NCBI GenBank assembly: GCA_017560945.1
Contig: JAFZDY010000041.1
Coordinates: 1-49,216, forward strand
Reading direction: 5' to 3'
Length of the DNA stretch: 49,216 bases
DNA from: Bacteroidaceae bacterium
GTDB taxonomy: Bacteria; Bacteroidota; Bacteroidia; Bacteroidales; Bacteroidaceae
Both the position numbers and the translations under genes were made by a program. Below the pieces are notes generated by a model. It searched no databases and was not told the DNA's origin. It saw nothing but the letters and a program-made list of their open reading frames with translations. This document shows, piece by piece, positions 2,024 through 40,204 of the stretch. The number at the start of each line of letters is the position of its first letter. The stretch's first letter is position 1.

Positions 2024-2123
2024 ATTCAAAGTTTAATATTCAAAGTTCAATATTCAAAGTTTAAAGTTTAAAGGGGAAAGCATTCTACTCCTTCCCACAG
2101 GGGGGAGGGGGTGGGTCTCCTCT
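2024..2123. repeat. Heptad array plus GC-rich palindromic module between permease genes
   Basis: The spacer has two parts. Next to the downstream start codon (2018) is an array of 7-bp words (ATTCAAA, GTTTAAT, GTTCAAT) at 2024-2073; CAAA recurs at 2027, 2041 and 2055, exactly 14 bp apart. Then comes the GC-rich module 2080-2123 (cattctactccttcccac followed by a G-rich run and gtgggtct). The same two-part arrangement occurs at 4549-4616 and 7019-7090. Confidence 0.8.
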
Positions 2124-4530: not shown

Positions 4531-4548
4531 ATCACTATATTTATTCAA

Positions 4549-4616
4549 AGTTCAAAATTCAATATTCAAGGGAGGAAAGCATTCTACTTTCCTTCCCAAA
4601 AGGGGGAGGGGGAGTA
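4549..4616. repeat. Heptad array plus GC-rich palindromic module
   Basis: Second copy of the inter-permease spacer: attcaaagttcaaaattc words abut the gene start, followed by gggaggaaagcattctac, cttcccaaaag and a G-rich run. The shared gcattctac stretch shows common origin with 2080-2123 and 7043-7090. Confidence 0.75.
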
Positions 4617-4630
4617 TCCTTGTCACTTAA

Positions 4631-7003
4631 TCAACTCTTGGCAATTTCGTCTGCAGGGTGTGTATGTGCTACATTCAGGATACGCCACAGGACTGTGAGT
4701 ACCACCAGTAGGGCTATTGCCACAAAGATGCCCAACCAAAAGAAGAAACCGAAGTAGATGAACTCCAAGTGGTTTGTACTTATGAAATGTATCACTAAGT
4801 AGCCTACGGGAAAAGCCAATGCTGCCGAGATGACCAATATCCAGAAGTAACGGCGGCCAAACATCCACAAGATATCACTGAAGCGTGCACCGAACACCTT
4901 ACGAATGGCCACCTCTCTACGGCGACGATCAGTATCGATGGTGATGGCCGAGTAGATTCCCAACAAGGTGATGACCAAACTGATGATGGTAAGGAAACGA
5001 ACCATCTTCTGTATGTCTGTTACGCTTGAGTGGGAGTCCTCAATATCTTTCATCAGTGTGGTGATTTTCGGCTCTATATTTTCGGGGAACACTTTACGAT
5101 ACTCTGCCATCACATGTGAGCGCACCGCCTCTACCTGTCCAGGGTAACACTTCAGATATACATGGCTAATCTGTTCTTGATGTTCATCTACCATATATAA
5201 CCTTTCAGGATTTGTCCCTCGTGAATCGTTGCGTGAAACCACTCTGTCCACAATACCTGTGACTGTGTATGACGAGGAGTTCTCGTGACTATAGAATGTC
5301 TTTCCTATGATGTTTTCATCGAACAATTCTGCAAAATAGACATCAGCAGCCACTTCACCTCCCCTCTGAGGGTATCTGCCACTTATCAATTTCACATTCA
5401 TGAACTCAAAGAAATTCATAGGTACGTATTCCATTGAAGGACAGCAGCAAGACTTCTCTTTATCGGGAGCATCCGATAGAAACATGTGATCTCCATCATA
5501 GTTAAATAAGTGAGAGAAATGAGGCATTATCTCCTTCACCCCCGAATGTGTCGCCAACTGTTGGCACAACAGGGATTTCTCTTGTATGGGAATAGATACA
5601 AAATCCGGATTGAGTGATACAGAAAGTATCTGACTCTTCTCTTCACGGGTCAACGACTTGAATGACTCATTTTGGTTCTTCTCTGATTGCAGATACAGGG
5701 CTATGGTGAGACTGAAGAATATCCAGCAAGTGAAGAACTGAAAGCCCAAAATGAAGTTTCTACTTACCTTTCTTTGGTGGCGTGGTGCAGCCGTGTTGCC
5801 TGCAATGCCTCGCTGAATGGTGATACGGTGAATGCGAAGGCTCAATACCAAGCAGATGATGGTGCAAAGGATGTATATCCAACCGGTGTATTCGGTCGCT
5901 TCCAATAGGAGTTTCATTCTGTCCACATCGGGTGGTACCATATCTTTCGATACGATGGCTCGCACATCCAACCAACGGAGTACATAGTTGCACAACCATC
6001 CGACCGGTATCATCAACATGGTCATTTGGGTCATAAGCATCAGGAAAAGGTCTCTCCACCGACATCCCATCATACGACGCATACTATATTCGTGGCTACG
6101 GTTCAGCAATGAACCAATGAGCAAATGCAGGAAGTTGAACAATCCGACAGACAGTATTATCAAGGCTATACCAATCACTGCTGACCATATTATAATCTCC
6201 ATACTTCCTTTGTCTCCAATACGACTTGCCTTAAGCACCAAGTCGCCACGTTCTATACCTCCAATGAAGGGGAAGTGTGTCATCACGGTGAGTAGTTCCT
6301 CATTGAGGTCTTCTATGCTACATCCCTCAGCCAACAATCCACGTGTATAGTAGTGGTTTGCTTCGTTGACCAGGTCATTCACACACAATAGGTCCAAATT
6401 TCGTTCATTACCTCCGACGGCATAGGATTTCTGTTGATTCCAGTCCTCCATCACCGCACGTACCGTGTAAGTATGTTCCCTATGAACGGTTTCACTCCTG
6501 TGCAGTGTCTGACCTATAGCTTCAACTTCGGAACCAAAGATTCGACGGGCAGTCGAAGCCATCAGTACTATGGAGTTGGGATTCTTGGCCACCTGTTCCC
6601 AACTACCTGCTACAATGTGTGGAGCATAGAGTGTGACAAAGGAACTATCCGTATCCATTGCTATCAATCCATGAGCTAACTCTTTGCCAGTATGGTTTTC
6701 CAAATAAGATCTTGTGTGAGGCCATCCAACGGTACATACATCTGATAAGGTATTAAGATGAAGTGACTTTAATTTAGCCGCATCATTCTTATTCAAGTAC
6801 CAAGACCATGAAGATTCTCCCGTAATCTTTACGAGTCGGTCACGATTCTCTAATGTGTTTTCCGCTTCGGTATAGAAACGGACAAAGTGCATACAGACGC
6901 TGAAACAAACCAAACTGGCTGAAAGTCCCAGTACACTGATGATGTTTTGCGAACCATATTTGCAGATGTTTCGCCATGCGATGGTAATGTTGTGTGATAA
7001 CAT
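4631..7003 (-). CDS. FtsX/MacB-like ABC transporter permease
   Basis: 790 residues from the ATG at 7003 (MLSHNITIAWRNICKYG); a TTG start six codons upstream at 7021 is possible but unlikely. Architecture matches the neighbours: N-terminal helix about 20-42, periplasmic domain to about 270, membrane block with LNRSHEYSMRRMMGCRWRDL, second periplasmic domain, then the C-terminal FtsX block with TDRRRREVAIRKVFGARFSD. It is the second gene of the operon, 195 bp downstream of the ATPase stop. It is the closest paralog of the permease at 2134-4530: DNA around the two starts (4449-4560 and 6921-7032) is almost identical, consistent with tandem duplication or gene conversion. An unusual Cys cluster (KSCCCPSMEY) sits in the second periplasmic domain and is absent from the paralogs. 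Confidence 0.9.
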   Translation of the reverse strand: MLSHNITIAWRNICKYGSQNIISVLGLSASLVCFSVCMHFVRFYTEAENTLENRDRLVKITGESSWSWYLNKNDAAKLKSLHLNTLSDVCTVGWPHTRSYLENHTGKELAHGLIAMDTDSSFVTLYAPHIVAGSWEQVAKNPNSIVLMASTARRIFGSEVEAIGQTLHRSETVHREHTYTVRAVMEDWNQQKSYAVGGNERNLDLLCVNDLVNEANHYYTRGLLAEGCSIEDLNEELLTVMTHFPFIGGIERGDLVLKASRIGDKGSMEIIIWSAVIGIALIILSVGLFNFLHLLIGSLLNRSHEYSMRRMMGCRWRDLFLMLMTQMTMLMIPVGWLCNYVLRWLDVRAIVSKDMVPPDVDRMKLLLEATEYTGWIYILCTIICLVLSLRIHRITIQRGIAGNTAAPRHQRKVSRNFILGFQFFTCWIFFSLTIALYLQSEKNQNESFKSLTREEKSQILSVSLNPDFVSIPIQEKSLLCQQLATHSGVKEIMPHFSHLFNYDGDHMFLSDAPDKEKSCCCPSMEYVPMNFFEFMNVKLISGRYPQRGGEVAADVYFAELFDENIIGKTFYSHENSSSYTVTGIVDRVVSRNDSRGTNPERLYMVDEHQEQISHVYLKCYPGQVEAVRSHVMAEYRKVFPENIEPKITTLMKDIEDSHSSVTDIQKMVRFLTIISLVITLLGIYSAITIDTDRRRREVAIRKVFGARFSDILWMFGRRYFWILVISAALAFPVGYLVIHFISTNHLEFIYFGFFFWLGIFVAIALLVVLTVLWRILNVAHTHPADEIAKS

Positions 7004-7018
7004 ATCATTATATTTATT

Positions 7019-7090
7019 CAAAGTTCAATATTCAATATTCAAGGGAGTAAAGCATTCTACTCCTTCCCACAGGGGGGAGGGGGGAGTGGA
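7019..7090. repeat. Heptad array plus GC-rich palindromic module
   Basis: Third copy of the spacer. Words caaagttcaatattcaatat adjoin the permease start, followed by gggagtaaagcattctactc, cttcccacag and a run of G with one A. It differs from the 2024-2123 copy mainly in the number of 7-bp words. Confidence 0.78.
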
Positions 7091-8042: not shown

Positions 8043-8151
8043 CCTTACAAAATTATTGAAACGTGCAAGAAAAATCGAAGAAATTTTCAAAAATCGTCTT
8101 TTTTTGATGAAAATTGTATGATTTCTGGACACTCGATTTTTGAAAAATGGG
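8043..8151. repeat. Exact 109-bp repeat, copy 1, upstream of the ABC ATPase operon
   Basis: These 109 bp are identical, base for base, to 30280-30388. The flanks diverge at once on both sides. The repeat contains an inverted repeat, ATTTTCAAAAATCG (8083-8096) facing CGATTTTTGAAAAAT (8134-8148), and a promoter-like sequence at its gene-proximal end. Both copies lie in the same orientation upstream of an FtsX-permease operon, 170 and 124 bp from the start codon, suggesting a duplicated regulatory cassette. Confidence 0.9.
8048..8079 (-). promoter_or_regulatory. Candidate promoter of the ABC ATPase-permease operon
   Basis: On the minus strand TAATTTTG (plus 8048-8055) matches the Bacteroidetes -7 box TAnnTTTG, with TTCG (plus 8076-8079) as a one-mismatch -33 box and a 20-nt spacer. 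Transcription would begin near 8041. The inverted repeat at 8083-8148 lies immediately upstream, where an activator could bind. The same boxes recur in copy 2. Confidence 0.5.
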
Positions 8152-9351: not shown

Positions 9352-9383
9352 TGAATAGTGAAAGGATGAAAGGGGCGATGGGC

Positions 9384-9527
9384 TTTGAGCAGTGAGCTTT
9401 GAACCTTGAATCTTGAACTTTGAATCTTGAACTTTGAACCTTGACTTGCTCAGCTTGATGAGCGATAGCGAACTAATCTTGAACCTTGAACTTTGAACTT
9501 TGAACCTTGAACCTTGCACTTTGAATA
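9384..9527. repeat. Heptad array TTGAAC(Y) interrupted by a 33-bp dispersed box
   Basis: About a dozen 7-bp words (cttgaac, tttgaac, cttgaat) flank a box at 9441-9477 reading ttgacttgctcagcttgatg then agcgatagcgaactaat. The same box occurs inverted at 19744-19779 and direct at 44691-44725, with variants at 25153-25182 and 30215-30250. The array ends 23 bp before the next start codon. It fills nearly the whole gap; no gene or clear terminator was seen. Confidence 0.8.
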
Positions 9528-9550
9528 GAACATAATAATTAAAAATATAT

Positions 9551-11146: not shown

Positions 11147-11182
11147 GCATACCCTCCTGACCCTTCCTGTGAGGGGGAGGGG
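11147..11182. repeat. GC-rich palindromic module between methyltransferase and peptidase
   Basis: taccctcctgacccttcctg followed by tgagggggaggggcaa: a CCCTTCC / GGGGGAGGGG stem directly after the stop codon, in the orientation opposite to the copy at 11229. The pair flanks the 5' end of the peptidase gene. Confidence 0.6.
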
Positions 11183-11191
11183 CAAACCATT

Positions 11192-13399
11192 ATGATTATG
11201 ATGAAAAGGAACAGTAAACAATACTTTTCACTCCCCTCCATCATTGGAAGGGGCAAGGGGTGGGTCTTTTGTTTCCTCCTTACAACCTTTACCGTCATGG
11301 CACAAGAACATAAACCCTTTACCTTGCACGACCTTATCCCTGGTGGCGAGACTTACCATCAGTGTACTCCCCAAAACTCATCGTACACATGGTGGGGTGA
11401 CCAGTGTGTGAAACTGGACGTGGATACATTGAAGGTGTGGAATCCCGCGGAGAAGAGTCAAGCCAAGGTGCTGGTGCAACTCGACCAGGTAAACAAGTGG
11501 TTGGAAGCAGCGGACAAGAAACCTGCACGTTCACTACAGAGTGTATCGTTTCCCTATGCCGACAAGTCGTGGATGCTCCTTCAAGTTTCTCGCGAATACA
11601 TCCTGCTCGATTGGCAGACAGGTAAGGTGGAGTGGACTCTGCCCATTGCCGAGAAGGCTTCGAACAGGGATTGGAACAAGACTTCGCGCCACTTGGCCTA
11701 TACCGTGGACAATAATTTGTGGATAACCACGGCTGAGGGAAAGAACATACAGGTAACTGATGAACCAGAGGGTATCAAATGTGGTGTAGCCGTCCATCGT
11801 AATGAGTTTGGCATAGAGACAGGAACATTCTGGAGTGCCTGTGGACAACGCTTGGCCTTCTATCGTATGGACGAAACCATGGTGAGCGACTATCCGCAAG
11901 TGGATACCGATGCCCGCACGGCAGAATATAATCCCGACAAATATCCCATGGCTGGTACGGCCAGTCACAAGGTGACGGTAGGTGTGTACGACATAGCTAC
12001 TGGCAAGACTCTATACCTGAAAGCAGGAGATCCCACAGACCGCTATTTTTCCAATATAGCCTGGAGCCCTTGCGGACAGTATATCTACATGATGGAACAT
12101 CCGCGTGAGCAGAATCGTGCCGAACTGGTGCGTTATCATGCCCTCACGGGTGAAAAGGATGCGGTACTCATTACTGAAACACACGAGAAGTATGTGGAAC
12201 CCATGACACCCATTACCTTTTTGCCGTGGGACGACACCAAGTTTATCTACCAAAGTCAGCAGGACGGTTTCAATCACCTATACCTATATAATAATAAAGG
12301 TGAAAAACTTTCTCAACTTACCCAAGGTGACTGGTTGGTGCAGCAACTCGTAGGTTTCAATCAGGGACGCAAGGAGGTTATCATCAGTACTACCGAGGTC
12401 AGCCCCCTTCAGAGTAACCTCTATGCCGTCAGTGTAAAGAGTGGCAAACGTCGCCCCTTGGGAAATAGCGAAGGAGTGCACTCCGTGGTGCTATCGGCTT
12501 CGGGCGATTGGATGATAGACCGTTATTCTGCTCCACAGACACCGCGCCGCATCGAAGTGGTATCGGTAAAGACCGGCAAGATGATAGATACATTACTGGA
12601 GGCTCCTGATCCATGGGATGGTTTCAATGTGCCTGAGATAACAGTAGGCACACTTAAGGCTGCTGATGGAGAAACCGATCTTTACTATCGATTGGTAAAG
12701 CCTGTGGACTTTGATCCAACGAAGAAATATCCCATCGTCGTCTATGTATATGGTGGCCCTCATGCACAGATGATTCACAACTCATGGAACTACGATGTAC
12801 GTGGATGGGACATCTATATGGCGCAGAAGGGCTACGTGGTATTTACCCTGGACAATAGGGGAAGTGGCAACCGTGGATTGGAGTTCGAGAATGTCACCTT
12901 CCGCCAATTGGGAGTAGAGGAGATGAAGGACCAGATGCAGGGAGTTGCTTTCCTTCAGAGTTTGCCCTATGTAGACAGTAATCGTCTGGGAGTACATGGT
13001 TGGAGTTACGGAGGATTCATGACCACCAACCTGATGCTTACCTATCCCGATGTATTCAAGGTAGGAGTAGCTGGAGGCCCTGTGACCGATTGGAAATACT
13101 ACGAAGTGATGTACGGTGAAAGATATATGGATACTCCTCAAACCAATCCTGAAGGATACAAGAACAGTAGTCTTCTCGAGAAAGCCGGAAATTTGAAAGG
13201 TCGTCTGCTCGTCATCCATGGTGGTAACGATCCTGTTTGTGTCCCCCAAATGACCTATTCTTTCATAAAGGCTTGCATCGACAAAGGTACACACCCCGAT
13301 CTTTTCATCTATCCCGGCCATGGTCACAATATGACAGGACGCGACCGTGTGCATTTGCACGAACACATCACCCGCTACTTCGAAGATTTCCTGAAGTAG
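11192..13399 (+). CDS. Secreted S9 dipeptidyl peptidase (DPP IV family)
   Basis: An exported serine peptidase that removes dipeptides, often X-Pro, from peptide N-termini; such enzymes feed periplasmic peptide use in Bacteroidetes. Residues 1-37 form a signal peptide (hydrophobic core about 24-36, cleavage near VMA-Q). The beta-propeller spans about 60-480 and holds the HRNEFGI motif (Glu205 region) that anchors the substrate amino group. The hydrolase domain follows, with GWSYGG nucleophile Ser605, Asp680 in HGGNDP and His712 in PGHGHN, so the triad is complete. The signal peptide is partly encoded by the GC-rich repeat (residues about 13-27). ATGs at 11192, 11198 and 11201 are all possible starts; the last gives MKRNSK. 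Confidence 0.93.
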   Translation: MIMMKRNSKQYFSLPSIIGRGKGWVFCFLLTTFTVMAQEHKPFTLHDLIPGGETYHQCTPQNSSYTWWGDQCVKLDVDTLKVWNPAEKSQAKVLVQLDQVNKWLEAADKKPARSLQSVSFPYADKSWMLLQVSREYILLDWQTGKVEWTLPIAEKASNRDWNKTSRHLAYTVDNNLWITTAEGKNIQVTDEPEGIKCGVAVHRNEFGIETGTFWSACGQRLAFYRMDETMVSDYPQVDTDARTAEYNPDKYPMAGTASHKVTVGVYDIATGKTLYLKAGDPTDRYFSNIAWSPCGQYIYMMEHPREQNRAELVRYHALTGEKDAVLITETHEKYVEPMTPITFLPWDDTKFIYQSQQDGFNHLYLYNNKGEKLSQLTQGDWLVQQLVGFNQGRKEVIISTTEVSPLQSNLYAVSVKSGKRRPLGNSEGVHSVVLSASGDWMIDRYSAPQTPRRIEVVSVKTGKMIDTLLEAPDPWDGFNVPEITVGTLKAADGETDLYYRLVKPVDFDPTKKYPIVVYVYGGPHAQMIHNSWNYDVRGWDIYMAQKGYVVFTLDNRGSGNRGLEFENVTFRQLGVEEMKDQMQGVAFLQSLPYVDSNRLGVHGWSYGGFMTTNLMLTYPDVFKVGVAGGPVTDWKYYEVMYGERYMDTPQTNPEGYKNSSLLEKAGNLKGRLLVIHGGNDPVCVPQMTYSFIKACIDKGTHPDLFIYPGHGHNMTGRDRVHLHEHITRYFEDFLK
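11229..11272. repeat. GC-rich palindromic module inside the peptidase signal sequence
   Basis: cactcccctccatcattgga then aggggcaaggggtgggtctttt: a CCCCTCC / GGAAGGGG stem plus the GGGTGGGTCTT tail. It lies in frame and encodes SLPSIIGRGKGWVF of the signal peptide. The tail sequence and its reading frame match the copies in priA (17509-17541) and at 39110-39195. Confidence 0.8.
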
Positions 13400-15067: not shown

Positions 15068-17560
15068 TTAACACGGATCTGCATCGAAGTAGATGGTGCA
15101 TGAGCGGAAGCGGGCATCGGTCATCAGTCGTTGGCGGATGAGCAGTAGTTGTTGGCGTACCTTGGTGAGTGAGGCGGTTGTCTCAATCTTGAGAACCATC
15201 TTGCGGATGAAGAGTGTCTGCACTCGGGCAATGGGCGGTGCATCGGGGCCCAGGACGCGGTCGCCAAAGACGGCTCGCAGGTGGACGCTCATCTCATGAG
15301 CCAGTGTGTCAAGCAAGTCGGCTTGATGGTGCTTCATATAGACATATATCAGGCGGTAATAGGGGGGGTAACGGAATAGCAGACGCTCTGCCAACTGGTC
15401 GTCGTACATGCCGGTGTAGTCGTTTGTCATCACTTGATGGATGACGGGTGCATCCTTGCTGCGTGTCTGTAGCACCACCAATCCCTGTTTGTGCTTGCGT
15501 CCAGCGCGCCCCGCCACTTGTGCCATCAGTTGGAAGGCTCGTTCGTGTGCGCGGAAGTCGGGGAAATTCATCATTGCATCAGCATCGAGTATGCCCACCA
15601 CACTCACGTGGTCAAAGTCCAATCCCTTGGAAACCATCTGTGTGCCGATGAGTATGTCGGTATGGTGGTGTTGGAAGTCGTGGATGATGCGTTCGTAAGC
15701 CTGGCGGGTGCGTGTGGTGTCGAGATCCATACGTGCCACGCGGGCTTCGGGGAAAATTTGTAGGATGCTCTCCTCGATGCGCTCGGTGCCAAATCCTCGG
15801 TGGCGGATTTCCTCGCTTTCACAAGCGGGGCATCTGGAGGGGATGTGGTAGGTGTATCCGCAATAGTGACAGGTCAGTTGTCCCAAGCCTCGGTGGTAGG
15901 TCAGACTTACATCGCAATTCTTGCATCGGGGTACCCATCCGCATGTCTTGCACTCTACCATGGGGGCAAATCCACGGCGATTTTGGAAGAGGATTACCTG
16001 TTCGCCTTGTTCCAATGCGCGTCGCATGTGTCCCAATAGGGTGGGCGAGAAGGGGCCACTCATGCGTCGTTTGTGTTGCAATTCGGCAATATCGACCACC
16101 TCTATCTCAGGTAGTTGAATGGATTGGTGTCGCTTCTGCAGGCTGACGAGGCCATATTTTCCCGTGAGGGCATTGTAGTAACTCTCGATGCAGGGGGTGG
16201 CCGTGCCCAGCAGCACTTTTCCTCCCATCATGGTGGCAAGTACGATGGCTGCGTTGCGGGCGTGATAGCGAGGGGCAGGATCCTGTTGCTTGTAGGTATT
16301 CTCGTGCTCCTCGTCCACGATGACGAGGCCCAAGTTCTTGAAGGGTAGGAAGACCGATGAACGTACACCCAGGATGATGTCGTAACTCTTGTCCGAGAGT
16401 TGCTTTTGCCATATCTCCACCCTCTCCTCGTCGGGAAACTTGGAGTGATATACTCCCAATCGTGAGCCGAATACACGCTTCAGTCGTTCAGTAATCTGGG
16501 TTGTCAGAGCTATTTCGGGCAACAGATAGAGTACCTGCTTGCCTGCTTGCAAGGCTTGTTGGATGAGGTGAATGTATATTTCCGTCTTTCCGCTTGAGGT
16601 CACTCCGTGCAACAGGCAGATGGGCTTGTCGCGAAAGCACTCGTTGATGCGGTCGAATGCCTCTTGCTGATATGTATTGAGGGCATTCAAGGGTTGGACA
16701 CTGGCGCACTGATTGTCCTTCAGTCGGCCAATCTCGTAGGGAAATTGTTCGAGTATCCCCTTCTCCACCAGTTGGGCAAGTATCGCTGATGAGGCTCCCG
16801 AGGTGGCGAGCAACTCCTTCTTGCTTACTGATGGTACTTCCATGCCGATGAAGGTCATGAGCAGTTGTTGTTGCTTTTGCGCACGCTTGAGGGTGTCGAG
16901 CAAGTGGTGTAATTGCTCTTCGTCGTGTGGGCCTCCAGCCAGTCGGACGTGCGTCTCAGTCTTTGGCTTGTAACTCCTCTTCACCTCCTCCTTTACAAAT
17001 ATGGCCTCTTTCTGAAGCAACGAGTTGATGGTCGGGAGCACATTCCTTATGCCTGTTTCCTTTTCTATCTGGGCGACGGTGCGCTCCTTTTCATCGCTCA
17101 ACAGGGAAAATATTTTTTCCTCGTTGGGGAGAAATTTTTCTCCCGTAGGGAAAAAATCGGGGTTCAATTCGACACGAGTTTCGCTTTCGAGTTTCATCCC
17201 CGAGGGTAGTGCTGCCTTGTACACATCGCCCAATGTGCAAAGGTAGTAGTCGGCAATCCATTGCCAAAGTTTCAGTTGCTCGGGTAGTATGATAGGGTAT
17301 GGATCCAACACTTCGGTGATGGTCTTCACTTCGTATTCTCCTTCGGGGGGTGTATGGTGCAGACGGATGACGATGGCCGTGTAGAAGCGCTTCTGTCCGA
17401 ATGGGACAATCACGCGGCTACCCACCTGCACATCTCCCACCATGGAGGGGGGAAGTTGGTAGGTGTAACTATTGGCCAAGGGGAGGGGGACTATGACGTC
17501 GGCGTAGACCCACCCCAGCCCTCCCTCTAGGGAGGGAGACAAAATACCTGATTTGTCCAT
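15068..17560 (-). CDS. priA: Primosomal protein N', replication restart helicase
   Basis: Reloads the replicative helicase at stalled forks. 830 residues: N-terminal DNA-binding region, superfamily 2 helicase core with Walker A GVTSSGKT (319-326) and DEEH (416-419), and eight zinc-binding cysteines in four pairs (537/540, 546/549, 564/567, 577/580). The family normally begins at about YADVIVPLPLANSYTY. Here 18 extra residues precede it, and those from about SPSLEGGLGWV are translated GC-rich repeat (17509-17541); no ATG, GTG or TTG lies in frame nearer to the conserved part, so the upstream ATG at 17560 must be used. A second repeat family underlies residues about 135-152 (FFPTGEKFLPNEEKIF). 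Gap to the upstream 7TM-HD gene is 53 bp; operon likely. Confidence 0.96.
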   Translation of the reverse strand: MDKSGILSPSLEGGLGWVYADVIVPLPLANSYTYQLPPSMVGDVQVGSRVIVPFGQKRFYTAIVIRLHHTPPEGEYEVKTITEVLDPYPIILPEQLKLWQWIADYYLCTLGDVYKAALPSGMKLESETRVELNPDFFPTGEKFLPNEEKIFSLLSDEKERTVAQIEKETGIRNVLPTINSLLQKEAIFVKEEVKRSYKPKTETHVRLAGGPHDEEQLHHLLDTLKRAQKQQQLLMTFIGMEVPSVSKKELLATSGASSAILAQLVEKGILEQFPYEIGRLKDNQCASVQPLNALNTYQQEAFDRINECFRDKPICLLHGVTSSGKTEIYIHLIQQALQAGKQVLYLLPEIALTTQITERLKRVFGSRLGVYHSKFPDEERVEIWQKQLSDKSYDIILGVRSSVFLPFKNLGLVIVDEEHENTYKQQDPAPRYHARNAAIVLATMMGGKVLLGTATPCIESYYNALTGKYGLVSLQKRHQSIQLPEIEVVDIAELQHKRRMSGPFSPTLLGHMRRALEQGEQVILFQNRRGFAPMVECKTCGWVPRCKNCDVSLTYHRGLGQLTCHYCGYTYHIPSRCPACESEEIRHRGFGTERIEESILQIFPEARVARMDLDTTRTRQAYERIIHDFQHHHTDILIGTQMVSKGLDFDHVSVVGILDADAMMNFPDFRAHERAFQLMAQVAGRAGRKHKQGLVVLQTRSKDAPVIHQVMTNDYTGMYDDQLAERLLFRYPPYYRLIYVYMKHHQADLLDTLAHEMSVHLRAVFGDRVLGPDAPPIARVQTLFIRKMVLKIETTASLTKVRQQLLLIRQRLMTDARFRSCTIYFDADPC
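17107..17158. repeat. 22-bp AT-rich repeat units within priA
   Basis: On the plus strand gttgggga (17123) and gtaggga (17145) lie 22 bp apart, each followed by an A/T-rich run. The second reads gtagggaaaaaatc, close to gtaggggaaaaaatc at 23021. In priA the stretch encodes FFP-x3-KF and related residues, and the protein is not obviously lengthened. Confidence 0.5.
17509..17542. repeat. GC-rich palindromic module covering the priA start region
   Basis: gacccaccccagccctccct then ctagggagggagac: the stem CCCTCCCT / AGGGAGGG with the GGGTGGGTC tail on the minus strand. It is in frame with priA and encodes residues from about SPS to GWV. Confidence 0.85.
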
Positions 17561-17579
17561 TGATTTGAGTATCTCTTTT

Positions 17580-17614
17580 CCCCCTCCCTAGAGGGAGGGT
17601 CGGGGTGGGTCTTC
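17580..17614. repeat. GC-rich palindromic module at the 3' end of the 7TM-HD gene
   Basis: ccccctccctagagggaggg then tcggggtgggtctt. It is the inverted partner of the 17509-17542 copy, 37 bp away, so the two form a larger inverted repeat between the 7TM-HD stop (17614) and the priA start (17560). Confidence 0.85.
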
Positions 17615-19718: not shown

Positions 19719-19860
19719 AGGTTCAAAGTTCAAGATTTAAAGTTAGTTCGCTATCGCTCATCAAGCTGCGCAAGTCAAGGTTCAAAGTTCAAAGTTCAAA
19801 GCTCATCGCCCATCGCTCATAACTCACAACTCATTGCTCACAGTTCATTGCCCTTTTCAT
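19719..19860. repeat. Heptad array, inverted 33-bp box and degenerate CTCAT words upstream of the 7TM-HD gene
   Basis: gttcaaagttcaagatttaa, then the dispersed box inverted (19744-19779: tagttcgctatcgctcatca then agctgcgcaagtcaa), three ttcaaag words, and a run of related words (gctcatcgcccatcgctcat then aactcacaactcattgctca). This low-complexity block fills most of the 19693-20059 gap, which otherwise holds only the gltX promoter. Confidence 0.7.
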
Positions 19861-20000
19861 CTCTCGTCCTTCGTCCCTAAAATTAAACTCTCTATACTCG
19901 TTTTGTCTTCGTTAATTTTCCATTTAACGGGGCTAAAGTACAAAAAAAAACAATAGAGCAACCTCTTTTTGCTCTGCAAACGGTTACTTCTCCTCATTTT

Positions 20001-24840: not shown

Positions 24841-24950
24841 AAGATACTCCAGTACCAGTTAAGTGGTACTGCAGTACCACCGCATTGGTACTCGAGTACT
24901 ACATAAGTGGTACTGCAGTATCTCTTAAGTGGGATTCTGGTACTTATTAA
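24841..24950. promoter_or_regulatory. Array of five 22-bp units, each centred on a GTAC...GTAC palindrome
   Basis: Units start at 24841, 24863, 24885, 24907 and 24929. Their inner palindromes are TACTCCAGTA (imperfect), GGTACTGCAGTACC, GTACTCGAGTAC and TACTGCAGTA, centred at 24849.5, 24871.5, 24893.5 and 24915.5, exactly 22 bp apart; four units end in TAA. A degenerate sixth follows. The phase is two helical turns, as expected for side-by-side dimer sites. The array lies upstream of the lipoprotein gene (start 24753) and fits an operator array better than a transposon remnant. Confidence 0.6.
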
Positions 24951-25279: not shown

Positions 25280-27658
25280 CTATCCTTTGCAAATCTCATC
25301 TGCAGGGCGAGCCTTTGCCGTTTTCCATACGCGCCAACCGACACAGAGGGCTACGAGCAGGGCAACAAGAAGGAAGATGCCTACGTATATCCACCACGAT
25401 ATTTCCGTTTGTACCACGTATTGCTCCAGCCATGGCTTCATGCAGGCATAGCCCACAGGGAAGGCTACGAGAGCCGCCACTCCTTGCAGCGCCATATATT
25501 CGAGGAAGAACATATCGAGGATGTCTTTCGTAGTAGCACCGAATACCTTACGAACGGCAATCTCCTTGCGACGTTGTTCACAAGTGAGCATTATCATTGA
25601 CCATACTCCAAAGAGGGCGATGAGAATGCAGACAAAAGTGATGATATTAAGGAGCTTCTGCAGATTGAGTTCAGATTCAAGATAGGTATCAAATTCTTCC
25701 TCTGAATCGGTAAAGTAAAAATCGCCTCCTTCGTATCGCTTGACATATTCTTCGTATTTCCTTTCGAGGTTTTTCCATTCTTCGCCTTGGTATTTGAATA
25801 TAAACTTGGTGCCAGGGTTGTATGAACGTTTCCAAGTCACTTCCTTGCAAATGAAGGTAGGAAAAGGTTGTCTCAGAGGTCCCATGTTGTGAAAGTCTTT
25901 CATTACACCCACCACATGTAAAACAACGTCCGATGAATACTCTATCTTTTTGCCTATCGGGTCGTCCCAACCAAATTCCTTCACAACACTTTCGTTGACG
26001 ACAATGGCCATCGGGTCGTCCTCTTCACTGAGAAAGTGCCCCTGTAACAGCCTCAATCCATAGAATTCGGGGAGCGCAAACTCCTTGTCTTCAAAGTATT
26101 GTAAACCGATTGTTTCTTTCAGCATCTTTTGTTCGGAAACTAAATACCCACCGATACTAATCATCTCTATTTCTCCGTTAGGGAACAGTGAATTTCTCCT
26201 TCGTATCACTTTCACCACTTCGGGTTGTTGGCGGAGGTAGCTGGCAAAGGATTCTATTTCATCTTCCGTCAAGTCGTAGGTTTGAATAAGCCCGATGTTG
26301 TTACGCTCAAATCCGAAATCATTGTAGCGCAGGGCATGAATCTGTTTTTGGAATACCACGGTGCAGAAGATAAACAGGATGCTGATGCACATCTGCAGGC
26401 ATACGCTCAACTTACGGAAGTTGGAGTAGCTGAACAGCCCTACTTGGCTCTGGATGGAGTTGTGCAACGCCTGACGACGGAAAAAACCGATGACTGGTAG
26501 TGAAATGAGTAACGATACACTCCCCACCCACAACATGTAGATGCTACCTTCACGATACACAAATTCTATATCTTTAGGCAGTTTGGCCATTTGGCAGAAT
26601 GGTTCCCTGACGGCATCTATTACGAATATTCCCAATAGAAGTGCAATGAACAGTACCAGTCCGTATTCGATGAGGAATTGCAGTATCAGGTCTCTTTTGG
26701 TGGCACCAAACACCGTGCGCAGGGCAATCTCGCGTTGGCGGATGAAGAGACGGTTGATGAACATGGTCAAGTAGTTGAGCAATCCACACAGAATCAGCAA
26801 ACTGCTGGCCAAGGCAAACAGGTAGAGGTGATTCAACTTCACACTCATAGCAGCCTGATAAAGCGTGTGACGGAGTTGGTCGAGAGGCAGCAACTTCAAC
26901 GCGTTAGGTTGGGCTGGTTCCTTTTTGCGATTGCCGCAGAAGTCCAGAGAATCCAATCTTGCATTTATTTCATCCACATCGGCATGAGGGGAAAGGCGAA
27001 GAACGTGTTCAAAACTGGGAGAATAAGGTATGTCATAACCTTTGAAAGGGTTATGGTTCTTCTTTGATGTATTGTTGACCAACAAGTCGAAGTGAAGACA
27101 ACTATGCTCATCTTCCCAACCATCAACCACGGCTGTCACCGTATAAGGTACTATACTGGCTTCTGTTCCTGCATCTAACGTAAACTCCTGTCCCAAGGGA
27201 TCTTTGCCCGGCCATAGTCGTTCGGCAGTCAGACGATTAATGGCAACTTCTCTATTGTTATGCAGGAATCCGTCAGTACCAGCTAATATTTGTATATTGA
27301 ACATCTCGAGGAAGGAACTGTCACAATAGGTACATACTATATCTGCAAGAAGAGAGTCGTTTTGTCTCAGGTCCCAATAGTATCCATCCGTAAAAGCAGT
27401 TGCGGCCTCTACCTCGTGGCAATATTTCACCACACTATCGCAGTATTGATTAGGAATCGTCCATTGATTTTCATTAGCTAAAAAATACATCCTGTCCGCA
27501 TCCTTATGAAATGCGTCATACGTGGTTTCGTATTTTATCCACATGCTTGCAAGTGCAAAACAAGCAAAGCCGATTGCCAAACTTACGATACTGACCACTG
27601 ATTGCAAGCGGTATTTTACCAGTTGCCGCCATGCGAGCTTGAAGTTATGCTCAATCAT
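25280..27658 (-). CDS. FtsX/MacB-like ABC transporter permease
   Basis: 792 residues from ATG 27658 (MIEHNFKLAWRQLVKYR), two copies of [helix - periplasmic domain - FtsX block]. FtsX signatures are FIRQREIALRTVFGATKRDL and CEQRRKEIAVRKVFGATTKD. Its N-terminal 55 residues nearly match the permease at 1-2018 and the next gene upstream, and its last 100 residues nearly match that next gene, while the periplasmic domain (about 60-270) is different in each. It is the second gene of a two-permease operon with no ATPase of its own; the ATPase at 7199-7873 is the obvious partner because the upstream 109-bp regulatory repeat is shared. Substrate unknown. Confidence 0.9.
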   Translation of the reverse strand: MIEHNFKLAWRQLVKYRLQSVVSIVSLAIGFACFALASMWIKYETTYDAFHKDADRMYFLANENQWTIPNQYCDSVVKYCHEVEAATAFTDGYYWDLRQNDSLLADIVCTYCDSSFLEMFNIQILAGTDGFLHNNREVAINRLTAERLWPGKDPLGQEFTLDAGTEASIVPYTVTAVVDGWEDEHSCLHFDLLVNNTSKKNHNPFKGYDIPYSPSFEHVLRLSPHADVDEINARLDSLDFCGNRKKEPAQPNALKLLPLDQLRHTLYQAAMSVKLNHLYLFALASSLLILCGLLNYLTMFINRLFIRQREIALRTVFGATKRDLILQFLIEYGLVLFIALLLGIFVIDAVREPFCQMAKLPKDIEFVYREGSIYMLWVGSVSLLISLPVIGFFRRQALHNSIQSQVGLFSYSNFRKLSVCLQMCISILFIFCTVVFQKQIHALRYNDFGFERNNIGLIQTYDLTEDEIESFASYLRQQPEVVKVIRRRNSLFPNGEIEMISIGGYLVSEQKMLKETIGLQYFEDKEFALPEFYGLRLLQGHFLSEEDDPMAIVVNESVVKEFGWDDPIGKKIEYSSDVVLHVVGVMKDFHNMGPLRQPFPTFICKEVTWKRSYNPGTKFIFKYQGEEWKNLERKYEEYVKRYEGGDFYFTDSEEEFDTYLESELNLQKLLNIITFVCILIALFGVWSMIMLTCEQRRKEIAVRKVFGATTKDILDMFFLEYMALQGVAALVAFPVGYACMKPWLEQYVVQTEISWWIYVGIFLLVALLVALCVGWRVWKTAKARPADEICKG

Positions 27659-27663
27659 ATTTT

Positions 27664-27715
27664 GTTTAATATTTAATATTTAAGATTCAAAGTTTAAGGT
27701 TCAAAGTTTAAAGTT
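27664..27715. repeat. Heptad words upstream of the permease start
   Basis: gtttaatatttaatatttaa then gattcaaagtttaaggttca and aagtttaaag. This is the same word family as at 2024-2073, without the GC-rich module. It fills the space between the two permease genes with AT-rich sequence. Confidence 0.6.
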
Positions 27716-27771
27716 GTATGCCTTAATTTATCCCTTTAATTTTTAAATTCTTTTATTTGAGAACTCGTTCT

Positions 27772-30156
27772 TCACTCTATCTCATCCGCAGGGCGAGCCT
27801 TGGCTGTTTTCCATACTCGCCAACCGACACAGAGGGCTACGAGCAGGGCTACCATGAGGAAGATGCCTACGTATATCCACCACGAGATTTCCGTTTGTAC
27901 TACGTATTGCTCCAGCCATGGCTTCATGCACGCATAACCGATAGGGAAGGCCACTATGGCCGCTATACCTTGCAGGGACATGTATTCGATGAAGAACATA
28001 TCGAGGATGTCCTTCGTAGTAGCACCATATACCTTACGAATGGCAATCTCCTTGCGACGTTGTTCACACGTGAGCATAATCATTGACCATACACCAAAGA
28101 GGGCGATGAGAATGCAGACACCGGTGGTGACACTGATGAGTGTTTGCAGGTTTTCTTCAGATTGTAACATTTTGTTGTATTCATCTGTCAGGTCTTCCCA
28201 ATTATCAGGATAAAAAGTACTTCCTCGCTTGTTAAAAAAGTCTTCAATTTTTTCCATCAGCGCCTGTTTGCATCCAGGTTTATAGCGAAGGAGGAGGTTT
28301 TTTATAGCATAATTTCGTATATCATCGGTATTTTCTAAACTCCTGATGACGCAACATTCAGCCTTGATGGTGGGGGAGATATTCTGGAAGTCTTTAACCA
28401 CTCCCACAATCTTATTCTCGTGAATAGAGTGTTCTAACGGATTCTTCCATCCCATCTGGCGGACAAACGATTCGTTTACCATAATGGCTTGATTTTCACC
28501 ATCGTGCAACCATCGACCCTGTGACAACGTGAGTCCGTAAAAGTCCACTATTGCTTTTGAAATCCATTGAACACTCAACTTAAGAGGATTTGTCAACTCA
28601 GGGAAATGATGTGGATGTAGTGTCATCGTCCCTTCTCTTGTTGTAGGATAGATAGGAATTGGGCTTATGAAAGCGGTATCTACTTCGGGACATTGTTTCA
28701 AAAAGGACGCCATCTCTTCTATTTCCTCCCAATTAATGTGTTGATACACTATCCGGTTTTCGCGTTCGAATCCAATATCACCATGTCGCAGGGTATTCAG
28801 TTGCTTCAGTAGTACTACGGTACAGAAGATACACAGGAAACTGATTCCTATCTGTACTCCTGTACTGATACGACGGAATAAGTTGTATTTCATCAATCCA
28901 CCCACTCCTGTGATGCTACTTTGTAATGATTGGCGACGGAAGTACCAAATGACTGGTATAGAGATGAGTATCGACACCATAAAGACCATCAACATATACA
29001 CCAGACTCTCGCGATGGAAGAAATCCCAATCTTCGGGCAAACCCGACATTTCGAGGAACCAATCAAGTGAAACCTGCACTACATAAATGCCACAGAATAG
29101 GGCGATGAGCAACAATAGACCATACTCAGTAAGGAATTGTACCATGAGTTTTCCACCCGTAGCACCAAACACGGATCGCAGGGCTATTTCTCGTTTGCGG
29201 ATAAATAGGCGATTGATGAACATTGTCAAGTAGTTCAGCAAACCACACAAGATGAGCATACCACCAGATATGGCAAACAGGTAGACATGGTTGATTTTAA
29301 TCGCAGCCATCTTTTTGTGAAGGTTTGTTTCGTGTCGCACCTTTGTAATAGGGACAGCCTTCATCCTCTGATTAGTGAACAACTCATCCAAAGTTATGGC
29401 GCTCACGCCCTCCAACCCTGGAATATTTCTATAAATCCGCATTGTATCGAGGCGGGCATTCAAGGCTTCCATATCCACCATGGGTGAAATGCGTGCCATC
29501 AAACAACTACCAAGAGGATTCAAATTTCCGTTCGGATTGATTGGTTTGCGAAGGAGAAAATCAATCCCTCTGAAATTGGTATGCTCTCCCCAATCGCGAA
29601 AGACCGCAGACACTCGTAATGACAATATGTATTTCTCTTCTCTAACCTTATCTCCAGAAATAATTGTTAGAGTGTTCATTATCGTCATTTCTTTTCCTAT
29701 GGGAGACTCGTCACCAAATATTTTATGTGCAAATTGGTCGCTAATGGCCACTTCATTTTCGTTATGCACAAAGTTCCCGTTTCCTTCCACAATATCCAAT
29801 CCGAATAATGCGACAAAATTGGTGTCGTTCATCATAAATCCTCTGCCATACAACGACATTCCATTGATTGTATCCGCATTGACATAGTTCACATGCGAAA
29901 ACTGTTCCAACTGAGGAAGTTCACGTAAGGTGCGGGGATCAGTATCCGTTGAGAGCATAATATCCCCATTCTTTAATATGACGTGTATCTCATTCGCATC
30001 CTTGTGAAATGCATCATATGTGGTTTCGTACTTTATCCACATGCTTGCAAGGGCAAAGCAAGCGAAGCCGATTGCCAAACTTACGATACTAACTGCTGAT
30101 TGCAAGCGGTACTTTACAAGTTGTCGCCATGCGAGACTAAGATTATGTCCAATCAT
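27772..30156 (-). CDS. FtsX/MacB-like ABC transporter permease
   Basis: 794 residues from ATG 30156 (MIGHNLSLAWRQLVKYR). Same plan as its paralogs: N-terminal helix about 18-41, first periplasmic domain, FtsX block with FIRKREIALRSVFGATGGKL, second periplasmic domain, and the C-terminal FtsX block with CEQRRKEIAIRKVYGATTKD. Its C-terminus stops at PADEIE, two residues shorter than PADEICKG in the next gene; DNA at 27780-27935 closely matches 25288-25443. It is the first gene of the second permease operon, 124 bp downstream of the second 109-bp repeat. The absence of an ATPase suggests it borrows one. Confidence 0.9.
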   Translation of the reverse strand: MIGHNLSLAWRQLVKYRLQSAVSIVSLAIGFACFALASMWIKYETTYDAFHKDANEIHVILKNGDIMLSTDTDPRTLRELPQLEQFSHVNYVNADTINGMSLYGRGFMMNDTNFVALFGLDIVEGNGNFVHNENEVAISDQFAHKIFGDESPIGKEMTIMNTLTIISGDKVREEKYILSLRVSAVFRDWGEHTNFRGIDFLLRKPINPNGNLNPLGSCLMARISPMVDMEALNARLDTMRIYRNIPGLEGVSAITLDELFTNQRMKAVPITKVRHETNLHKKMAAIKINHVYLFAISGGMLILCGLLNYLTMFINRLFIRKREIALRSVFGATGGKLMVQFLTEYGLLLLIALFCGIYVVQVSLDWFLEMSGLPEDWDFFHRESLVYMLMVFMVSILISIPVIWYFRRQSLQSSITGVGGLMKYNLFRRISTGVQIGISFLCIFCTVVLLKQLNTLRHGDIGFERENRIVYQHINWEEIEEMASFLKQCPEVDTAFISPIPIYPTTREGTMTLHPHHFPELTNPLKLSVQWISKAIVDFYGLTLSQGRWLHDGENQAIMVNESFVRQMGWKNPLEHSIHENKIVGVVKDFQNISPTIKAECCVIRSLENTDDIRNYAIKNLLLRYKPGCKQALMEKIEDFFNKRGSTFYPDNWEDLTDEYNKMLQSEENLQTLISVTTGVCILIALFGVWSMIMLTCEQRRKEIAIRKVYGATTKDILDMFFIEYMSLQGIAAIVAFPIGYACMKPWLEQYVVQTEISWWIYVGIFLMVALLVALCVGWRVWKTAKARPADEIE

Positions 30157-30279: not shown

Positions 30280-30388
30280 CCTTACAAAATTATTGAAACG
30301 TGCAAGAAAAATCGAAGAAATTTTCAAAAATCGTCTTTTTTTGATGAAAATTGTATGATTTCTGGACACTCGATTTTTGAAAAATGGG
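30280..30388. repeat. Exact 109-bp repeat, copy 2, upstream of the second permease operon
   Basis: Identical to 8043-8151. The inverted repeat lies at 30320-30333 and 30371-30385. A promoter-like pair occupies 30285-30316 on the minus strand (see separate entry). The distance to the permease start is 124 bp. Confidence 0.9.
30285..30316 (-). promoter_or_regulatory. Candidate promoter of the second permease operon
   Basis: On the minus strand TAATTTTG (plus 30285-30292) with TTCG (plus 30313-30316) 20 bp upstream, inside the 109-bp repeat. Transcription would start near 30277, giving a leader of about 120 nt composed of the heptad array and box. Confidence 0.5.
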
Positions 30389-39052: not shown

Positions 39053-40204
39053 ATGGGAATGCAAATAGGAAAACACTATATGCACAAAACGAATGAACCA
39101 CACACTTCACTTTCCTCCCTCGAGGGGCGATTGCGAATGGGTACATCCATCGCGAAAATTGGGCGATGGAGGGAAGGCAAGAGGTGGGTCTTTCTTCTTC
39201 CACTTCTACTTTGCCTGTTTCCCCTCTCTGCGTCATCCGACACACTACGAGTGATGTGGTATAATGTGGAAAATCTTTTTGATTGTTATGATGAGGAAGG
39301 AAAGAACGATGAAGAGTTCCTTCCCGACGGAGAAAACAAGTGGACACCCTACCGATACTATCAAAAACTACGTGCCATAGCACAAGTGGTTGCCGCCGTG
39401 GGCGACCAGCAATTGCCCGACATCATAGGGTTGTGCGAGGTGGAAAGCGATTCGGTATTGACTGACCTTACCCGACGACGTTCACCCTTGCGTACGGCTG
39501 GATATCAATACATTGTCACCCATTCACCGGATGAACGTGGAGTGAACGTGGCTTTACTCTATCTTCCTGGTCGTTTTCGTCCGTTATCCCAACAAAGTAT
39601 AGTGGTACATAATGACCGCCCTACGCGTGATATATTGTATGTCAAGGGATTGGTGTCTCCCACCGATACACTTGACCTCTTCCTTTGTCACTTGCCCTCG
39701 CGTCGAGGTGGAGCGCGTCAAAGTCAGCCTTCCCGTTTGCAAGCCGCACAAGTGTTGCGTCAAGCCATCGATTCGGTGAGGGATGTGCGTCCACAAGCCC
39801 GTATTTTGGTGATGGGAGATTTCAACGACGCCCTTGTTCACACTCGTGTAGGTGATGTGTTGGGTGTGGTTGCTTCACCCAGTGCTTCGAGCGACCTTGC
39901 CCATGGCCTTGTCTCCCTTACCGCAAACAAACTCCCTGGCACATATGCTTACCAGGGAAAGTGGGAAGTGATAGATCACTTTCTTGTAAGTCCTTCTCTT
40001 CTACAATCCTCTGGTCATCAATTCTATACCTCACCTGAACTCACCCGTGTAGCAGCTCTTCCTTTTCTGCTTACCAGGGACGAGAAATATGGAATTGACA
40101 TACCCTTGCGCACCTATATAGGTCCTCGTTATCTTGGAGGATTCAGCGATCACCTTCCCTTGGTGGTGGACTTTGTGAGGGTTATTGCCAACCCTCCTCG
40201 CTGA
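39053..40204 (+). CDS. Secreted endonuclease/exonuclease/phosphatase-family protein
   Basis: A metal-dependent phosphoesterase of the EEP fold, exported. Core residues are visible: Asn71 in YNVENLFD, Glu129 in LCEVES, DERGVNVALLY, GDFNDA (Asp256, Asn258) and the terminal SDHLP. The signal peptide core WVFLLPLLLCLFPLSA lies at 45-60. Residues about 20-47 are translated GC-rich repeat (39110-39195), so the start is uncertain: ATG 39053 gives 383 residues with a very long n-region, ATG 39137 gives 355 and a better-shaped signal. Substrate (nucleic acid, phospholipid or other phosphodiester) cannot be told. The 3' end overlaps the RNase R stop tail-to-tail by 23 bp. Confidence 0.88.
   Translation: MGMQIGKHYMHKTNEPHTSLSSLEGRLRMGTSIAKIGRWREGKRWVFLLPLLLCLFPLSASSDTLRVMWYNVENLFDCYDEEGKNDEEFLPDGENKWTPYRYYQKLRAIAQVVAAVGDQQLPDIIGLCEVESDSVLTDLTRRRSPLRTAGYQYIVTHSPDERGVNVALLYLPGRFRPLSQQSIVVHNDRPTRDILYVKGLVSPTDTLDLFLCHLPSRRGGARQSQPSRLQAAQVLRQAIDSVRDVRPQARILVMGDFNDALVHTRVGDVLGVVASPSASSDLAHGLVSLTANKLPGTYAYQGKWEVIDHFLVSPSLLQSSGHQFYTSPELTRVAALPFLLTRDEKYGIDIPLRTYIGPRYLGGFSDHLPLVVDFVRVIANPPR
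39110..39195. repeat. GC-rich palindromic module encoding the N-terminus of the EEP protein
   Basis: tttcctccctcgaggggcga, then tccatcgcgaaaattgggcgatgga (39148-39172; a TCCATCGC...GCGATGGA stem), then gggaaggcaagaggtgggtc and tttcttc. It ends with the same GGTGGGTCTTT tail as the copies at 11229 and 17580 and encodes GKRWVF in the same reading frame as GKGWVF of the peptidase. Confidence 0.75.

Follow-up and report, generated by a model that had tools for sequence, protein, structure and literature searches.

Whether a dispersed repeat can build the signal peptide of a bacterial gene is the question raised by the EEP-family gene (Exo_endo_phos_3) in the 49,216-nt stretch analysed here (the window), which belongs to a 2.35-Mb MAG (G000; 57 contigs, 82% complete) assigned to Bacteroidaceae by its named PriA relatives. 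The initial annotation had proposed that GKRWVFLL in the EEP protein and GKGWVFCF in an S9 peptidase come from the same module tail in a common frame, that priA is read in that frame as well, and that the module acts as a mobile N-terminus in this lineage. The correspondence within the window was confirmed: the EEP and peptidase genes both carry GGTGGGTC in one codon phase, with GGC AAG AGG TGG GTC TTT CTT CTT (GKRWVFLL) at positions 39176-39199 of the EEP ORF, and the GGTGGGTC tail of the right-hand priA module, which adjoins Tyr19, is read in the matching phase (LGWVYADV). Matches to the 11-mer GGGTGGGTCTT with at most one mismatch numbered 5 in the window versus 0.92 expected, a count reached in 1 of 100 shuffles; the EEP copy itself has one mismatch. 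When the EEP copy was aligned over 80 nt with the copy ahead of an unrelated amidase gene on another contig (C41, L021), the score was 66 (maximum of 2000 shuffles, 33), and without the tail it was 50 versus a shuffle maximum of 33. The features of the window are listed in Table 1; all start codons are predicted.

Table 1. Module copies and associated genes in the window
Feature	Position	Strand	Remarks
EEP (Exo_endo_phos_3) gene	39053..40204	+	ORF and domain match
Long-subtype module copy, read as n-region (SSLEGRLRMGTSIAKIGRWREGKRWV)	39114..39190	+	EEP N-terminus
EEP signal peptide: native hydrophobic core with cleavage region (FLLPLLLCLFPLSASS)	39191..39238	+	
DPP-IV-like S9 peptidase gene	11192..13399	+	
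Module within the peptidase signal-peptide n-region (SLPSIIGRGKGWV, followed by FCFLL)	11229..11266	+	
Degenerate facing partner module	11148..11183	-	Upstream of the peptidase start
priA	15068..17560	-	Start codon 17558-17560, flanked by two modules
Right-hand priA module, putatively translated (SPSLEGGLGWV)	17506..17542	-	Within the first 18 PriA residues
Facing partner module	17576..17612	+	Gap between 7TM-HD gene and priA
Partial module copy	2099..2117	+	Apparent gene gap

The module spans ~35-45 nt (~77 nt in the long subtype) and consists of a CTCCC..GGGAG palindrome and, after it, a G-rich tail that has GGTGGGTC(T) at its end; GGTGGGTC itself was set by the search pattern, and the base after it was T in 85% and C in 15% of tails (n = 150). 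Its usual unit comprises two modules with their tails outward and measured 84-168 nt among 30 complete GACCC..GGGTC units. With the score threshold for a partner module placed at 1% of shuffles, a facing module lay upstream of 113 of 146 tails, while downstream a facing module was found for one tail and a same-way module for three. The same-orientation upstream test was also passed by 89 of the 146 tails because the module core is palindromic; nevertheless, among the 116 tails that had a partner of either kind, the facing match led by over 5 points in 105 and the same-way match in 6. At priA the two modules are 89% complementary, and there, as in the peptidase, M16 and other genes, the start codon lies between two facing modules.

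Counted as overlapping matches, the pattern AGGGN{0,14}GGTGGGTC occurred 34 times in the source genome versus 4 times for the reversed control. Across the family, at least 10 matches were present in 37 of 251 genomes from 9 genera (up to 194 per genome) and the others had 9 or fewer by hand count; the reversed control reached its maximum of 17 in genome G258, itself one of the 37 (30 matches). Copy number differed sharply among species of one genus, a patchy distribution that fits a mobile repeat. Several copies stood at contig ends in G002 and G005, so draft assemblies may break there and undercount the repeat. The 30 complete units resemble MITEs in being small, in having terminal inverted repeats and in containing no transposase gene. 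The repeat presumably moves by transposition; no transposase linked to it and no RAYT gene flanked by it was found: Y1_Tnp was present in 5 of 15 genus genomes and in none of the contigs of the incomplete source MAG, and a simple motif search detected no modules at those five loci. No convincing target-site duplication was seen at the 30 complete units, where direct repeats of at least 3 nt were not commoner than in shuffled pairings and one of three 2-nt comparisons gave P = 0.038.

Repeats of other kinds were also observed. In relatives, a second dispersed repeat (GCGTCATCTGCGTCT and similar) occupies gene gaps (upstream of L093, L089 and L031), including empty peptidase sites. The window contains a 109-nt sequence twice at 100% identity (8043-8151 and 30280-30388), TTGAACTTTGAAYCTTGAA-type arrays in apparent gene gaps (9371-9538, 19719-19861, 2025-2070 and 27665-27710), some of them mutually inverted over 120 nt, and a 22-nt tandem repeat (TACTCCAGTACC..) at 24845-24932 in a partly palindromic region. 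Adjacent pairs of long ORFs (~800 aa) at 2134-7021 and 25280-30156 share flanking repeats and stretches of 70-93% identity and are likely paralogs.

Orthologs of EEP, PriA and the peptidase were compared across the 15 genus genomes. Three of these (G000, G002 and G005) had a filled EEP gene, and in G002 and G005 the position and frame of the module agree with those in the window. In G014, G007 and G013 it lacked the module and began with MK and the hydrophobic core directly at the stop codon of the upstream gene (G014, MKALLLLILLLLPLLTPAQ); the EEP core and cleavage region listed in Table 1 thus has its counterpart in module-free orthologs. Because these already possess an ordinary signal peptide, the module did not build one. 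A genuine module is read in frame at the EEP N-terminus, but the proposal that it constructs the EEP signal peptide was not confirmed, and the further proposal that two genes gained a signal peptide from it fails, since module-free orthologs already have one and only the n-region is module-derived. The module was accordingly rejected as builder of the hydrophobic core. As judged from the aligned N-termini, it mostly follows a start that looks native and precedes the native hydrophobic core, and in the predicted proteins it is the signal-peptide n-region that is lengthened, with core and cleavage region native.

Filled and empty sites were found at the other loci as well. PriA was filled in four genomes (G000, G002, G005 and G014), and in outgroups (G001, G003, G008, G010 and G011, for example) it started with MKK, MKH or MKQ, immediately ahead of the conserved [FY]xDV motif. 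The PriA N-termini of G006 and G007 are longer with no recognisable tail, and in G012 other repeats give the EEP protein a long N-terminus; N-termini that lack the module are therefore variable as well. PriA module extensions in other Bacteroidales were rejected: 15 readable starts lay 1-3 codons before [FY]xDV and were module-free by eye. This check drew on 80 matches, 13 of which begin before residue 18; the 16 loci viewed comprised 12 of those 13 (L172 omitted) and 4 others, and L197 had no motif match. The peptidase was filled in G000, G002, G005 and G007; the G002 copy is cut by a contig end, and an apparent frame break there was rejected as the contig begins inside the module. Two genes that we take from reading to encode TolC-like and M16-like proteins (the names leuA-like, leuC-like and ilvH-like below were assigned likewise, unlike the Pfam-matched ones) behaved similarly. 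The TolC-like gene was empty in G000 (MNIKKLFLFSLLLLL) and filled in G005, G002, G012 and G014, with an apparent in-frame loss of 33 nt that removed the module in G006. For the M16 peptidase gene, G012 and G004 have empty sites and G005, G006, G002 and G014 filled ones. An assembly artefact was rejected on the basis of the occurrence of these insertions in other genomes.

A census of G000, G002, G005 and G014 yielded 153 distinct tails, to which a direction was assigned by the codon usage of the next 300 nt: 72 pointed into a gene running away from the tail, 79 faced a gene end and 2 lay at contig ends. The 72 forward tails comprised 20 classed as N-terminal extensions (frames 10:5:5), 7 internal or long cases, 24 with an ATG no more than 24 nt after the tail and 21 running for fewer than 60 codons, 18 of which stop within 7 codons. 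The 24 tails closely followed by an ATG, together with the caution in the available portion of PMC3733652 that many annotated 5' ends of REP-bearing ORFs are suspect, would suit over-extended ORFs whose true starts follow the module. We consider this most improbable, because the next in-frame ATG, GTG or TTG after the tail lies at +60 in EEP, +27 in PriA (window), +54 in M16, +51 in L206 and +70 in L231, in each case past the hydrophobic core or inside a conserved domain, while in G005 the EEP gene offers a TTG at +21, inside the core, and the peptidase an ATG at +30, at the cleavage site. Moreover, the module-spanning frames are open across species. The EEP ORF has in-frame ATGs at 39053, 39059, 39080 and 39137, and between 39140 and the point where the hydrophobic core ends ATG, GTG and TTG are all absent. 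As the next starts of EEP and PriA coincide with the conserved domain or fall within it, making either gene from a usual start requires that the module be read. The same applies to frames 0 and 1 in general, which contain no ATG, GTG or TTG within the module, such that it would be translated in any gene starting at a usual codon; the tail does contain a GTG in frame 2, and the six families using that frame need not read the whole module.

The initial annotation had also anticipated enrichment at gene starts together with a frame bias, and the first of these was borne out. By eye count, 5 of 26 source-genome tails lay within ~150 nt after a possible start versus ~1.0 expected (one of the five, in a leuA-like gene, also has an ATG just after the tail), and for the four genomes the figures were 16 of 153 (4 doubtful cases of the 20 dropped) versus ~6.1, under a null that assumes 26 genes for the window and takes no account of selection or of a preference for gene gaps. 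After families had been collapsed and corrected by eye, there were 15 N-terminal and 9 internal families (P = 1.5e-7 for uniform landing over 400 codons). For these lists, which were drawn up by eye with orthologs collapsed, L274 and L300 were dropped from the 20 N-terminal rows and L275 and L284 were counted as internal; L296 was merged with L021 as one amidase family (frame 2 in G002, frame 1 in G000) and counted once as frame 1; L230, L235, L305, L309 and the leuA-like gene were moved in from other classes; and L282, classed internal or long, was left out as ambiguous. The homolog check of the internal families covers L287, a clear fit, and L275, which fits only downstream of the insert. 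The frame bias was rejected, as the 15 N-terminal families used all three frames (6:3:6; chi-square p = 0.55); agreement of all three window genes has a chance of 1 in 9, and the common frame is true of these genes and not of the lineage. The exact-tail WVF reading gave little to count: the genome contains 8 exact GGGTGGGTCTT tails, a thin sample, and among the contexts viewed an open WVF near a start was seen only in the peptidase copy, the C48 copy reading WVF but behind a stop codon. In a second genus, the 20 tails viewed included N-terminal landings in a lipoprotein-like protein (L350), a leuC-like gene (L353) and perhaps L345.

By eye, 11 of the 15 N-terminal families encode lipoproteins or other exported proteins in which the tail adjoins or lies close to the hydrophobic core: EEP, the S9 peptidase, the M16-like and TolC-like proteins, and proteins matching the Pfam families SusD-like_3 (two, one of them under the curated cut-off), DUF4843, PGA_cap, Laminin_G_3, Trypsin_2 and LTD/OAD_gamma. 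Relative to 29 of 69 background ORFs scored by a crude hydrophobicity test, this excess gave p = 0.027, and when one hydrophobicity test was applied to both sides (12 of 15 families) p = 0.008, the background being small and taken from the neighbourhood of repeats. The excess is modest because hydrophobic N-termini are common in that background.

Modules were not confined to gene starts; they lie mostly in outward pairs filling gene gaps, and some lengthen C-termini or are located within genes. At the 79 tails facing a gene end, 53 genes stop no more than 59 nt before the element, 14 run into it and stop there (two of them overlapping it by a single base), 4 continue through it, 4 stop at least 60 nt before it and 4 have no stop in the stretch. 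A whole unit inside a GH2 beta-galactosidase gene (L287, G002) encodes a 28-residue insert, the protein aligning with PDB 6hpd as far as residue 333 and resuming at 362. One further gene, L284 (G002, C100), apparently has two modules, before and after a hydrophobic stretch of its N-terminal region. The notion of a mobile N-terminus captures the in-frame N-terminal recurrence and the filled and empty sites, but not a repeat that also abuts or extends gene ends and sits inside genes.

The outward pairing permits a different reading, in which the facing pair is a large hairpin with the start codon in its loop, kept to tune translation initiation at priA foremost, and the translated tail is a by-product. 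The priA leader had a predicted fold of -80.1 kcal/mol (z -9.2) that places the AUG in an apical loop of 19 nt, those of the other three species were also stable (z -10.8, -3.9 and -3.9), as was the G007 peptidase leader (z -6.9), and the priA start codon is aligned across the four species. However, the EEP and peptidase leaders of the window (z -1.9 each) and the G005 peptidase leader (z -2.1) were little more stable than shuffles, neither EEP in G005 nor the TolC-like gene has a facing partner above threshold, the minimum free energy structure of G002 priA has separate hairpins inside an outer stem, and any outward-facing inverted pair folds in this manner without selection. We therefore regard the hairpin reading as unlikely; regulation may apply at priA but hardly to the whole repeat family.

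The same arrangement of starts between modules could mean that the pair travels as a unit whose spacer brings along an in-frame ATG that takes the place of the native start. In EEP the TGATGA stop-start overlap of relatives is gone and a new ATG lies further down, and in an ilvH-like gene of two species the spacer ATG is in frame with a native ATG directly after the tail. Yet spacer starts look like those native to orthologs that lack the module (MM[KR]R for the peptidase, MNI for TolC and M[KR]T for M16), spacers differ between genes in length and, by eye, in sequence, and in L222 a native-looking start precedes the whole unit, all of which makes a portable start codon very unlikely. Only slightly less doubtful is a broader portable translation-start cassette, in which a loop-presented start and a basic, disposable n-region would have been recruited repeatedly for exported proteins and the replication-restart helicase PriA.

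The repeat is thus probably a dispersed REP/MITE-like palindromic element of a Bacteroidaceae lineage that is tolerated in signal-peptide n-regions while native signal peptides are kept. It lies in gene gaps and intrudes on adjoining coding ends, and a landing after the native start and before the hydrophobic core would be tolerated if the frame were kept, since n-regions take polar, basic residues of variable length and the G/A-rich module strand codes for G, R and K. The segment, presumably translated and neutral for the protein, would then leave with the cleaved signal peptide. Such n-region landings would include those in EEP, in the S9 peptidase and in a number of further exported proteins, with PriA as a cytosolic case kept in four species.

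Several known systems are comparable, the nearest in kind of tolerance within proteins being the Rickettsia palindromic elements (RPEs). According to the accessible parts of PMC2229807 and PMC10969869, RPEs are short palindromic repeats of ~100-150 bp that occur in gene gaps as well as in frame in many unrelated protein genes, and the available text of PMC3733652 reports that RPE-1-decorated N-termini are expressed in vivo. The present repeat is likewise a short palindrome found in gene gaps and inserted in frame into conserved, unrelated genes (PriA, EEP and peptidase orthologs; GH2 beta-galactosidase), a likeness of kind rather than of compared sequences; it differs from RPE in its host, its two-module outward units and the clustering of its landings at N-termini, mostly of exported proteins. 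GTAG/CGTC REPs, in the same portion of PMC3733652, are 20-40 bp palindromes, mostly in opposite-oriented pairs near gene ends, sometimes intragenic and many at ORF N-termini, with CGTC repeats in five phyla including Bacteroidetes. The close opposite-oriented modules described here, near gene ends, at times intragenic and at times N-terminal, are similar to such dimers, whereas their end tag is GGTGGGTC(T) and neither GTAG nor CGTC, the comparison being by tag and not against the Bacteroidetes repeats of that paper. In the Yersinia MITE YPAL/RU-2, as far as the accessible part of PMC2229807 describes it, the element ORF is fused to adjoining ORFs and the YPO1552 signal peptide is partly MITE-formed; there the element contributes a hydrophobic cluster to a putative new protein, while here it contributes the n-region of old, conserved proteins. 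The literature on other repeats includes a Cardinium MITE (PMC9769881) and Porphyromonas gingivalis repeats (PMC5771137). A literature search of titles and abstract openings, with most subscription journals outside its scope, returned no description of the present repeat. What seems new is the host group, the start-to-core landing in many exported proteins and the ortholog-controlled empty and filled sites.

For annotation, these findings advise caution: N-termini in this group should not be trimmed on the presumption that GC-rich repeat peptides are errors. Beyond Rickettsia, a palindromic repeat has been accepted repeatedly inside proteins in gut-type anaerobes, which suggests that signal-peptide n-regions offer selfish DNA a safe place to land.
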